A stretch of DNA of 58,116 bases from Gemmatimonadota bacterium (GTDB lineage Bacteria > Gemmatimonadota > Gemmatimonadetes > Longimicrobiales > Gaopeijiaceae). Of this stretch, positions 48,334 to 53,930 are shown piece by piece (the stretch's first letter is position 1; the number at the start of each line of letters is the position of its first letter). The stretch lies in contig VXQO01000060.1 in the NCBI GenBank assembly GCA_009838975.1, positions 1-58,116 of the forward strand, written 5' to 3'. The notes beneath the pieces were generated by a model. That model saw nothing but the letters and a program-made list of their open reading frames with translations. It was not told the origin of the DNA and ran no database searches. The translations under genes and the position numbers were made by a program.

Positions 48334-49209
48334 CTACACCCGCAGCGACACCCCCGTCGCCGTACGCACGATCGTCGGCTGCACCCGGGTGATCGTGCGG
48401 GCCCGGTAGTGCGCGAGCAGCCCCTCGACGGTCGCGAAGTCGCTCAGGTCCTCCAACGTGCGAATCGTCGGGAAGATCATGGGCAGCCGCCCGCGCCGGT
48501 GCCGGTCGAGCGCCGCGCCGGGCGTGAGCCAGACCGCATCGGTCATCTCGCGCCGGTCGTAGACGGCCCGCGATCCGCGCGGGACCCTGGCCGCGAAGAA
48601 GCGGGTGTCGTAGCGGCGGGGTTCGACTTCAGGTGTGACCCAATGGGCGATGTACTCGACCGCGCCGCCATCCAGGCGCGCACCGAGCCCATCGAGCACG
48701 GCGGCGAATGAAGCTCCGCCCCCCAACAAGGCTTCCCTCGCCTCACCCACCACCTCCCCGCCCGGCGGCCCGTTCGCGGTGACCACCCCGGCCAGCAGCC
48801 CCGTCTCCTCGATGGCTTCCCGCAGCGCGGCCCCGTAGTACGCGATCGCGGGGGGATCCGCGTCCGGCGCGATCCCCAGCCGTGCGGCCGCGCCCTCATG
48901 CGTCAGCCCGTCCCAGCACCGCACCAGCGCGTCCTGGCCGTCGGCCGCGTCCACCCGCCCACCCGGGAACACGTACGCGCCCGGCACGAACCCCGTGGCG
49001 CGATTGCGGCGCAGCAGCAGCACCTCGGGCCCGCCGCCGCCCTCGCGCATCAGCACCACCGTGGCCGACGGGTGCGGCACGGCCGGCGTGGCGGGCACGT
49101 TGGCCAGCGTGTCAACGAATCCCGGGGGCAGCCGCTCCTCCGGGATCTCGTAGGGAGGTGGCTCCCCGCCTCCGTCCGCGGCCCGGCTCCCGTCAGTTCC
49201 CCGCGGCAT
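48334..49209 (-). CDS. NUDIX hydrolase with split Nudix box
   Basis: A 291-residue nucleotide-pyrophosphate-type hydrolase. The Nudix box is divided: GAYVFPGGRVDAADGQD, then about 40 residues, then YYGAALREAIEETGLLAG with the catalytic REAIEE(T)G. Such an insertion is typical of NUDT19/CoA-pyrophosphatase-like members. The first 45 residues (GSRAADGGGEPPPYEIPEERLPPG) are low complexity. Starts inside the divergent-type gamma-glutamyltransferase gene with a 17-nt overlap, a strong sign of translational coupling. Substrate unknown. Confidence 0.9.
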   Translation of the reverse strand: MPRGTDGSRAADGGGEPPPYEIPEERLPPGFVDTLANVPATPAVPHPSATVVLMREGGGGPEVLLLRRNRATGFVPGAYVFPGGRVDAADGQDALVRCWDGLTHEGAAARLGIAPDADPPAIAYYGAALREAIEETGLLAGVVTANGPPGGEVVGEAREALLGGGASFAAVLDGLGARLDGGAVEYIAHWVTPEVEPRRYDTRFFAARVPRGSRAVYDRREMTDAVWLTPGAALDRHRRGRLPMIFPTIRTLEDLSDFATVEGLLAHYRARTITRVQPTIVRTATGVSLRV

Positions 49210-50842
49210 GCCCGTCCTTCCGGGGCTCCGACGCCGCCGCCCACCCCTTCTCCAACCGCAGGATCACCTGCGCGCCGCCGAAGTCGGTGCGCGTCCAGTC
49301 CGCCAGCTCATGTCCCCGCGCCTCCAGGTCCGCCCCCACCTCGTCGCTGATCCGCTCGATCGCAACGCGCTTGCCCGACAGGTGCCGGAACCTCGCCGCA
49401 TCCACCGCCTCCTGCGGGTCCATCCCGAAGACGAGCATGTTGAGCAGCAACTGGGTGTGGCCCTGCGGCTGCATCGAGCCGCCCATGAGCCCGAAGGCCA
49501 TCAGCGGCTCGCCGTCCCTTGTCACGAAGCCCGGGATGATCGTGTGGAAGGGGCGCTTGCGCGGCGCGACCTGGTTGGGGTGGCCGTCGTCGAAGACGAA
49601 GCCGGCGCCCCGGTTCTGCAGCGCGAACCCGGTCCCGGGAATCACGACCCCCGATCCGAACCCCGAGAACACCGAGTTGATGAACGACACCATGTTCCCG
49701 TCGGCGTCCGCGACGGAGAGGTAGATGGTCTCGGAGTCGGTGACGGCGCGCCCCGGGTTGACCCGGTCGGCCGCGACCCGCGGGTCGATCAGCGCCCGCC
49801 GGGCGTCGATGTACGACGGGTTCAGGAGCGACATGGGGTCGATCTCCATGTGGTCGGCGTCCGACACGTACCGGTGCAGGTCGGCAAAGGCCAGCTTCTT
49901 CACCTCGATGAGGTGGTGGAGGTAGTCGGCGGAGTTGTGTCCCATGCCCTCCAGGTCCATGGGTTCGAGGAGCTCCAGCATCTCCAGCGCGGCGATCCCC
50001 TGCCCCGCCGGGGGAAGCTCCCACACGGTGAACCCGCGGAAGTCCGTGCTCAGCGGCTCGACCCACCGCTGCTGATGCGTGGCGAGATCCTCCAGCGTCA
50101 GAAAACCGCCCAATTCCGCAAGTCCGTCTACAAGATCCTGTCCCAGAGAGCCGCCGTAGAGGACGCCGGGCCCCTCGTCGGCGATCCTCTGAAACGAACG
50201 GGCAATATCCGGATTCGTGTGCCACTCCCCCGCCCTGGGCGCGCGCTCGCCGTCGATCAGGTAGGTCGCGCGAGCCCCCTCGTCGCGGGCCAGCTTCTCG
50301 GTCGCGCCCGCCCACTGCCGCGCAATGACGGGGGTCACCGGAAAGCCCTCGCTCGCGATGCGGATCGCGGGCTGCAGGACCTCGGCCAGGGTAAGCTTGC
50401 CGAAACGCTCGACCAGCGCGTGCCACCCCGAGACCGCTCCCGGCACGGTGACCGCCTCCGGCCCCGATCCCGGCACGCGGTCGTGTCCCCGCGCCCTGAG
50501 CGCCTCTACCGACATGCCGCTGCCGCTCCGGCCGCTCGCGTCGATGCCATGGAGTTCGCCCGTCTCGGCCCACCACACGATCGAGAAGGCGTCGCCGCCC
50601 ATCCCGGTCATGTGCGGTTCGGTCACGTTGAGCACGGCCGCGGCGGCCACCGCCCCGTCGATCGCGTTGCCGCCCTGCTGCATGACCTCGAGGGCGGCTG
50701 CGGTGGCGAGCGGCTGGCTGGTGGCGGCGACGTTGCGCGGGGCGTAGACCGTCGAGCGGCGCCCCATGTCCTGCTGGGATTGGATGGTCATGGGCACGAG
50801 GGCTGTGAAGGCGGCGGCGAGGAGGAGGCTGCGGGTCTGCAT
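49193..50842 (-). CDS. Gamma-glutamyltransferase-family protein, YwrD-like variant
   Basis: A 549-residue exported Ntn hydrolase. Signal peptide MQTRSLLLAAAFTALVPMTIQSQ. Core: YAPRNVAATSQPLATAAALEVMQQGGNAIDGAVAAAAVLNVTEPHMTGMGGDAFSIVWW. The autocleavage site reads SETIYLSVADADGNMVSFINSVFSGFGSG; the nucleophile Thr is kept, but the canonical TTH is TIY. This variant matches the YwrD-like branch rather than true glutathione-degrading enzymes. Downstream are RKRPFHTIIPGFV and MGGSMQPQGHTQLLLNMLVFGM. ATG at 50842 with AAGGA upstream. Overlaps the NUDIX gene by 17 nt. Confidence 0.92.
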   Translation of the reverse strand: MQTRSLLLAAAFTALVPMTIQSQQDMGRRSTVYAPRNVAATSQPLATAAALEVMQQGGNAIDGAVAAAAVLNVTEPHMTGMGGDAFSIVWWAETGELHGIDASGRSGSGMSVEALRARGHDRVPGSGPEAVTVPGAVSGWHALVERFGKLTLAEVLQPAIRIASEGFPVTPVIARQWAGATEKLARDEGARATYLIDGERAPRAGEWHTNPDIARSFQRIADEGPGVLYGGSLGQDLVDGLAELGGFLTLEDLATHQQRWVEPLSTDFRGFTVWELPPAGQGIAALEMLELLEPMDLEGMGHNSADYLHHLIEVKKLAFADLHRYVSDADHMEIDPMSLLNPSYIDARRALIDPRVAADRVNPGRAVTDSETIYLSVADADGNMVSFINSVFSGFGSGVVIPGTGFALQNRGAGFVFDDGHPNQVAPRKRPFHTIIPGFVTRDGEPLMAFGLMGGSMQPQGHTQLLLNMLVFGMDPQEAVDAARFRHLSGKRVAIERISDEVGADLEARGHELADWTRTDFGGAQVILRLEKGWAAASEPRKDGHAAGN

Positions 50843-51000
50843 CGCATTGTGTCCTTGGCAGGTCCTGAGACTGGGGGTGCTGCCCCGGGAGAGCGGCCGG
50901 GGCGCATGGGCGTCGATCCAACGACGCTTCAAGTTAGGCATGGGGTGGGATCCGGGGCCAGCGGAGAGGATCGGGGGCGGCGGACTCGCCGCGCGACGAC

Positions 51001-51094
51001 CTGCCGAAATGGCCGATTCCCGCCGATTTGGCTGCTTGCCTGCCGAAATGGCCGATCCCGCGGATCGACAAAGTCTGCCGAAATGGCCGATTCC
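51001..51094. repeat. Three near-identical 17-mers, CTGCCGAAATGGCCGAT, irregularly spaced
   Basis: Copies start at 51001, 51040 and 51074, and are followed by TCCC, CCCG and TCCC. Spacing of 39 and 34 nt is too irregular for CRISPR. A degraded fourth copy (CTGCCAGAATGACCG) begins near 51127. All lie in the gap upstream of both lon and the gamma-glutamyltransferase gene. They may be operator sites or a small repeat family. Confidence 0.85.
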
Positions 51095-51128
51095 CCGCCC
51101 CAATCTCCCCATCGGGCAACGCAATCTG

Positions 51129-51173
51129 CCAGAATGACCGCCCAATGATGGCATTCTGACGAAACGGCAGTAC
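51129..51173 (+). promoter_or_regulatory. Dyad and weak promoter upstream of lon
   Basis: CAGAATG and CATTCTG form a 7-bp inverted repeat separated by about 15 nt, and the right arm runs into ATGGCA-17 nt-TACTAT, a weak -35/-10 pair pointing at lon. It is neither CIRCE nor HAIR. The repeated arms at the -35 suggest a regulator site, unproven. Confidence 0.35.
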
Positions 51174-51376
51174 TATGAACCGTAACCGAGGGCAGGGCAG
51201 CCTCGTAGAGATTGGCAAGGTTCATGCAGTAGATGGTGTTTTTGCGGTCGCGCGGGCGCACCCTTTCGGGGTTTCCGGTGTAAGAGGGCGCTGGCGCCGC
51301 CGAAACCGGATCGGGCGATGAGGGGGAACGGGGCGGGCGCCGCATCCCCTCGACGTCATCAAGACAGCCTGCAGAT

Positions 51377-51392
51377 ACCGCCTTCGGGCGGT
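51377..51392 (+). promoter_or_regulatory. ACCGCC-TTCG-GGCGGT hairpin in the lon 5' leader
   Basis: A perfect 6-bp stem capped by a UUCG tetraloop, one of the most stable RNA hairpins, ends 16 nt before the lon ATG and just before its GAGAGG ribosome-binding site. It could stabilise the mRNA or affect initiation. Confidence 0.6.
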
Positions 51393-51407
51393 GAGAGGTC
51401 ATAACAC

Positions 51408-53930
<2,523 letters not shown>

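Follow-up and report, generated by a model that had tools for sequence, protein, structure and literature searches.

A palindromic site array upstream of lon in a Gemmatimonadota bacterium as a probable enhancer of a sigma-54 heat-shock regulon

What is the role of a cluster of nearly identical short repeats in the gap upstream of lon, the gene of an ATP-dependent protease? The question is raised by a contig of 58,116 nucleotides (VXQO01000060.1) from a Gemmatimonadota bacterium of the family Gaopeijiaceae, the whole of which was analyzed and is referred to below as the window. The lon gene (51408–53930, forward strand) encodes 840 amino acids, and a match to its product was found in 59 of 59 genomes, its own included. 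The far border of the gap is formed by a divergent ORF (49193–50842, reverse strand) with a start codon at approximately 50842, and judging by its sequence this gene presumably encodes a gamma-glutamyltransferase-like protein. The start region of the divergent gene was conserved in an alignment of lon upstream regions from relatives. We regard lon as the putative target of the array on the basis of the sequence.

The initial annotation had described three nearly perfect 17-mers and a decayed fourth. Three exact copies of the 17-mer CTGCCGAAATGGCCGAT were confirmed at 51001–51017, 51040–51056, and 51075–51091, and the decayed copy corresponds to 51020–51034 (CCGCCGATTTGGCTG; 71% over 21 nt). 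Five matches with at most 3 mismatches were found in the window, two of which were away from the array (44031 and 54381), against an expectation of 0.16, and none of 100 shuffles gave as many as five. Two further drifted copies at 51126–51140 and 51156–51170 had been missed, and the true unit is not the 17-mer but a 15-bp palindrome, CTGCCA-N3-TGGCAG (written CTGCCANNNTGGCAG and also CTGNCANNNTGNCAG), from which the copies in the window have drifted. The lon array comprises six copies of the palindrome between 51001 and 51170, all given on the forward strand. Sites 1 (51001–51015), 3 (51040–51054), and 4 (51075–51089) share the sequence CTGCCGAAATGGCCG, with 2 mismatches to CTGCCANNNTGGCAG; site 1 opens the first copy of the 17-mer, and sites 3 and 4 belong to the second and third copies. 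Sites 2 (51020–51034), 5 (51126–51140, CTGCCAGAATGACCG), and 6 (51156–51170, CTGACGAAACGGCAG) have 3, 2, and 3 mismatches, respectively.

A CAGAATG/CATTCTG dyad, which had been read as overlapping a weak lon promoter, is present at 51130–51136 and 51152–51158, but its right half CATTCTG occurred in 3 of the 13 lon promoters shown, namely the own promoter and two that are nearly identical to it. The dyad was rejected as a separate element because it is not conserved, and it seems to arise by chance from array sites five and six. After the last site, most of the 13 lon promoters shown carry another conserved block, with a GTAACC-like sequence (51171–51194 in the window, TACTATGAACCGTAACC onward), and it is possibly a further promoter or the site of a bending protein.

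We compared the lon upstream regions at 30 loci, which correspond to the 30 best Lon matches among the 59 genomes with a match, own genome included. These regions contained 94 sites with at most 3 mismatches to CTGCCA-N3-TGGCAG, compared with 15.3 in single-base shuffles. This enrichment indicates that the 17-mer is a local version of the palindrome. The array was nearly identical in the near relatives L007 and L008, the Lon proteins of which were 99% and 98% identical, respectively. The upstream regions L009 and L010 carried a three-site array, the last site of which, at the place of site 6, was the perfect palindrome CTGCCAGTATGGCAG.

The own genome (4,507,204 bases in 162 contigs, 95.78% complete) contained the exact 17-mer three times, all in the lon gap, together with two matches at 2 mismatches; the control gave 1. 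The perfect palindrome was found at 6 places in 4 loci, with 1 for the reversed control. Three of the perfect copies were part of a four-site array before hsp20 (C40), one was part of a five-site array before clpB (C16), one was accompanied by a one-mismatch partner before dnaK (C120), and one was beside a hypothetical gene (C64:89151); the gene names were read from the sequences. Three of the four loci, with five of the six perfect copies, are therefore those of chaperone genes. The earlier suggestion that the repeats are cooperative regulator sites in a stress regulon fits this recurrence at clpB, hsp20, and dnaK well. No palindrome site within one mismatch was found in the hrcA-dnaJ stretch (L204) of the own genome. 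In the genus, represented by 23 genomes including the own genome, 161 perfect palindromes were counted against 19 for the reversed control, and 22 of the 23 genomes had at least one. When the motif was relaxed to degenerate positions and a single mismatch, it was not enriched genome-wide (188 against 290 in the control). Single imperfect sites consequently mean nothing, and the lon array, the sites of which deviate from the palindrome by 2–3 mismatches, counts through its clustering and conservation. In a sample of the phylum, arrays of two perfect sites were present in 20 of 249 genomes, all of the own family, and in none for the control.

In the four promoter sets, neighboring sites were mostly 19–24, 30–32, 39–44, or 51–52 bp apart. 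Among nine periods tried on 125 spacings, 10.5 bp gave the best periodicity, with an R value of 0.706 that describes the set and is not a probability, since the sequences are related and not independent; the maximum in 2000 random sets was 0.217. Seven spacings (35, 60, 63, or 64 bp) were outside the groups, and the 35-bp spacing of the own lon array is off phase. The distance from the center of the last site to the GG of the sigma-54 element described below was 17 bp for hsp20, mostly 37–47 bp for dnaK, and mostly 51–52 bp for lon. Taken together, the lon, dnaK, and hsp20 promoters carry repeated dyads upstream on one face of the helix, which is the arrangement of a UAS.

A small mobile repeat family had also been proposed. 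A dispersed REP- or MITE-like family that lies near chaperone genes by chance would agree with the 15–21 perfect copies in each of the genomes G007, G011, and G022, with the seven copies within 227 bp in G022:C61, and with the 46 of 80 array loci in other genomes for which no chaperone or lon gene was assigned. It disagrees with the own genome, in which five of only six perfect copies are at chaperone genes, with the helical phasing, and with the placement of sites before chaperone genes of other phyla. Moreover, the genome-wide count confined the exact 17-mer to the lon gap, with no scatter over hundreds of places. The mobile repeat reading was rejected on this confinement and on the phased spacing, and a dispersed repeat family is very improbable. 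As a separate observation, the cluster in G022:C61 (L106, G022:C61:120823–121049) places its seven perfect palindromes beside hsp20 and an SLC13-like gene.

Sigma-54 recognizes a −24/−12 element with the consensus TGGCACG-N4-TTGC, in which GG and GC are separated as GG-N10-GC. We scored distinct upstream regions of at least 200 nt against this consensus, with GG and GC required and a maximum score of 11. The predicted sigma-54 promoter of lon is TTGGCAAGGTTCATGCAG at 51212–51229 on the forward strand, with GG at 51214–51215 and GC at 51226–51227, from which we infer a transcription start near 51239. The score of this element was reached by 4% of 100 shuffles of the region, and 11 such matches were present on both strands of the window. 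The weight of the element therefore lies in its conservation: it was aligned and kept in the relatives. A score of at least 9 out of 11 was obtained for 28 of 30 lon, 15 of 16 dnaK, and 10 of 11 hsp20 distinct upstream regions, and nine of the ten hsp20 elements were at −80 to −121. In L107 the best match was at −383, and in L072 the best score was 8. RpoN was encoded in 58 of the 59 genomes, including the own genome (G000:C10:54506–54982, E 1.6e-58).

A sigma-70 promoter scan of 50800–51450 gave no promoter-like site. The likely promoter, which the initial annotation had missed, is of the sigma-54 type and lies downstream of the dyad. No terminator was found by a scan of the same region, an Rfam search at gathering thresholds gave no match in the window, and a plasmid search with the gap sequence gave no match.

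In regards to clpB, only 1 of 20 upstream regions reached a score of 9, with the element inside its own array, so that clpB has no clear sigma-54 element by this measure. In 24 of 28 rows, a count that includes duplicates of one promoter, a degenerate TGGYCCGRATCTTTCA-like element preceded the array. In the own genome (L061, G000:C16) and relatives, clpB and an OPT-like transporter gene were in divergent orientation, and the array was downstream of the degenerate sigma-54-like element.

The known heat-shock operators were also considered. HrcA is encoded in the own genome, which would agree with the gap sites being those of HrcA (CIRCE) or HspR (HAIR). However, searches of the gap with the consensus inverted repeats gave no CIRCE core at 2 or fewer mismatches and no HAIR at 5 or fewer mismatches; the CIRCE/HAIR reading was rejected on this basis and is extremely improbable.

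The species genome collection was scanned for two perfect sites close together, and 80 of the 85 stretches obtained were examined (L109–L188), 53 of which bore the titles Gemmatimonadota, Longimicrobiales, or BD2-11. By tblastn and frame reading, 34 of the 80 array loci were before clpB (14), dnaK (12), hsp20 (4), lon (2), or groEL (2), and no chaperone or lon gene was assigned to the other 46. A strong sigma-54 element, defined as a score of at least 10 within 180 bp, accompanied 8 of the 12 dnaK, 2 of the 4 hsp20, and 1 of the 2 groEL arrays, neither of the lon arrays, none of the 14 clpB arrays, and 1 of the 46 arrays without an assigned gene. Among these 46, groups of orthologous arrays close to start codons were found before HutI-like (L133, L140, L167, L177), amidohydrolase-like (L118, L157, L187), and Fic-like (L141, L150) genes; none had a clear sigma-54 element, and some of the 46 resemble operators. 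Either the activator is also active or repressive at such places, or the code is shared by a different protein.

These arrays bear on a further explanation, in which a classical repressor of stress genes uses the palindrome as its operator and blocks sigma-70 transcription, with the sigma-54 promoters acting in parallel as a separate input. In most rows the clpB arrays end approximately 50 bp before the start codon, several arrays without an assigned chaperone or lon gene lie close to a start codon with no sigma-54 element, and TACTAT directly follows site 6 in the own lon region, all of which would suit a repressor. On the other side, the lon, dnaK, and hsp20 arrays are upstream of a conserved −24/−12 element, the gene of an EBP adjoins an array and dnaK in the genome G062, and the sigma-70 scan of the own gap was empty. 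We consider a repressor operator unlikely.

The preferred reading, in which the array is an enhancer of a sigma-54 promoter, calls for an enhancer-binding protein (EBP). The own genome gave four strong matches to sigma-54 activators and two weak ones, one of which was ClpB. The candidate, P0001 (547 amino acids; G000:C120:32767–34407, L200:2768–4408), is encoded among proteostasis genes in the order hslU, gcvT, P0001, engB, lon2, clpX, clpP, tig, htrA, and dnaK, with unnamed ORFs in between and with gene names read from the sequences. P0001 has a Sigma54_activat AAA+ domain (PF00158, E 4.3e-70) and a Fis-type HTH (PF02954, E 6.9e-14), and its sigma-54 contact loop reads GSFTGA, of the GAFTGA type, in the alignment. 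The N-terminal domain aligns to receivers, but other residues replace the acidic pair, the phospho-acceptor, and the lysine. P0001 was consequently not classed as a two-component response regulator of the NtrC/HsfA type. In the AlphaFold model (mean pLDDT 62.2, pTM 0.34), the N-terminal domain and the HTH were good and the AAA+ part was poor; the PDB matches of the model (NtrX, FleQ, and NtrC1) confirm the family only, and no claim is built on it. Matches to P0001 of at least 400 bits were obtained in 57 of the 59 genomes, including the own genome, and G012 and G014 gave weaker activators only.

We searched for P0001 homologues in six genomes with arrays, and matches were obtained in five; no EBP match to P0001 was obtained in G064 (array locus L116). 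Four of the six (G059–G062; by title two Planctomycetota, one Bacteroidales, and one uncultured bacterium) were chosen because an array preceded a chaperone gene, and these were searched whole for the palindrome. They contained 12 perfect sites at 8 loci, of which 8 sites at 4 loci had been the basis of the choice. The four remaining sites, one at each of 4 loci, were before dnaK in G059 and G060 and, in G062, before groEL and before a receiver-protein gene that groEL follows. Chaperone genes were therefore found at all 8 loci, 4 of which are independent of the choice. A sigma-54 element with a score of at least 9 was present at 5 of the 8 loci, the exceptions being dnaK of G060 and G062 and hsp20 of G061. 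At L282 (G062:C182), we observed that the gene of a stand-alone receiver protein is between the array, with a sigma-54 element of 11 out of 11, and groEL.

In G062, the best match to P0001 was encoded directly before the array and dnaK. An ORF of 153 amino acids separated the best match from the dnaK array in G060, and an ORF of up to 953 amino acids did so in G059. The best match in G061, on a contig other than that of the array, had no receiver, a P0001-like linker helix, and ERTLYRK. The homologues in G059, G060, and G062 keep the receiver residues that P0001 has replaced. The HTH stretch ERTLYRK was identical in P0001 and these homologues from G059–G062, and it differed in two other EBPs of the own genome. 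The Bacteroidales homologue L209 shares the linker helix of P0001.

The enhancer reading could hold with one or more other EBPs binding the sites and P0001 located among proteostasis genes by chance. This would account for G012 and G014, which keep perfect sites (4 and 1, respectively; the single site of G014 belongs to hsp20, where a sigma-54 element is also present) and gave no P0001 orthologue, and for the gene between the EBP gene and the array in G059 and G060; ERTLYRK-like helices also occur in other EBPs. However, the own genome has only four strong EBP matches, and the best match to P0001 is near dnaK and an array in three of the four chosen genomes. We consider binding by another EBP unlikely. 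G008 keeps the P0001 orthologue and the lon element, and the perfect palindrome was absent from it.

We conclude that the cluster is probably the enhancer (UAS) of the sigma-54 promoter of lon in a heat-shock regulon, with P0001 as the most likely EBP. Since dnaK and hsp20 have both the sites and sigma-54 promoters and clpB has the sites, the enhancer would serve a heat-shock regulon that includes these genes. In the proposed mechanism, the EBP, most likely P0001, would bind CTGCCA-N3-TGGCAG at several sites, loop the DNA to the sigma-54 RNA polymerase at 51212–51229, and open the lon promoter through ATP hydrolysis. We infer the binding of P0001 here, the activation by P0001, and heat as the signal. 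Our confidence in the enhancer reading is lowered by the ORF between the EBP gene and dnaK in G060 and by the choice of genomes for their arrays. The initial annotation is partly supported overall.

The small heat-shock gene ibpB of Escherichia coli likewise has a sigma-54 promoter, which there is secondary to sigma-32. In Flavobacterium psychrophilum, starts of the sigma-54 type were mapped before groESL, lon, dnaK, grpE-dnaJ, htpG, and clpB (PMC9723704). This sigma-54 (SM4) regulon covers genes of the kind seen here, in another phylum, and the available part of the article names no enhancer motif; the same part leaves the activator open among three PF00158 proteins, and reports induction on blood agar and under other conditions but no heat test (PMC9723704). 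Furthermore, grpE-dnaJ has a mapped start in F. psychrophilum (PMC9723704), in contrast to the own hrcA-dnaJ stretch, which has no palindrome site within one mismatch. A survey from 2025 predicts, in its accessible text, a sigma-54 heat-shock gene cluster in Bacteroidota and Planctomycetota, with predicted sigma-54 promoters for GroEL, GroES, IbpA, GrpE, DnaJ, DnaK, and ATP-dependent proteases, and a word search of its main text gave no occurrence of Gemmatimonad*, UAS, or palindrom* (PMC12316311). The available text on Myxococcus xanthus describes an NtrC-like protein, HsfA (HsfA/HsfB), that drives lonD, a lon heat-shock gene, and that receives its phosphoryl group from a hybrid kinase (PMC9109919). 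P0001 differs in that it does not have the receiver residues for phosphorylation.

A literature search for the literal string CTGCCAAAATGGCAG found it in no paper. Among the matches listed for the sigma-54 heat-shock literature, in which subscription journals are mostly outside, neither the motif nor the activator was named in titles or the starts of abstracts. These results indicate that a sigma-54 regulon of such genes was already known, and the enhancer motif, the candidate activator, and the extension to Gemmatimonadota appear to be new. In the portions available of the literature on sigma-54 heat-shock regulons, the ERTLYRK activator family is unnamed. A candidate activator and its DNA code are thereby supplied where the work on F. 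psychrophilum and planctomycetes, as far as the accessible texts go, left the activator open.

A wider reading, which we put forward tentatively and consider possible but slightly short of probable, is that the ERTLYRK/CTGCCA-N3-TGGCAG activator family is the master sigma-54 heat-shock regulator in Gemmatimonadota, Planctomycetota, and Bacteroidota. The same tentative reading would include an input swapped between lineages (a true receiver, a dead pseudo-receiver, or none) with the targets and the DNA code unchanged, and some arrays of Gemmatimonadota since co-opted at other genes. P0001 would illustrate how an activator can keep its regulon although its sensing domain seems to have died. If true, enhancers and sigma-54 would be shown to support a heat-shock response in several phyla.

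Array loci were also observed in Paenibacillus, Rothia, and other unrelated taxa. Three loci of Mycobacterium (L168, L172, and L175) had two perfect palindromes 33–34 bp apart, at L168 beside a TetR-like gene, and these arrays perhaps belong to an unrelated regulator with the same half-sites. Four loci (L110, L114, L123, and L151) were titled Gammaproteobacteria, and their clpB was 67–70% identical to that of the own genome. The match position of L123 is that of G134, a genome of the own family, so the titles look wrong.
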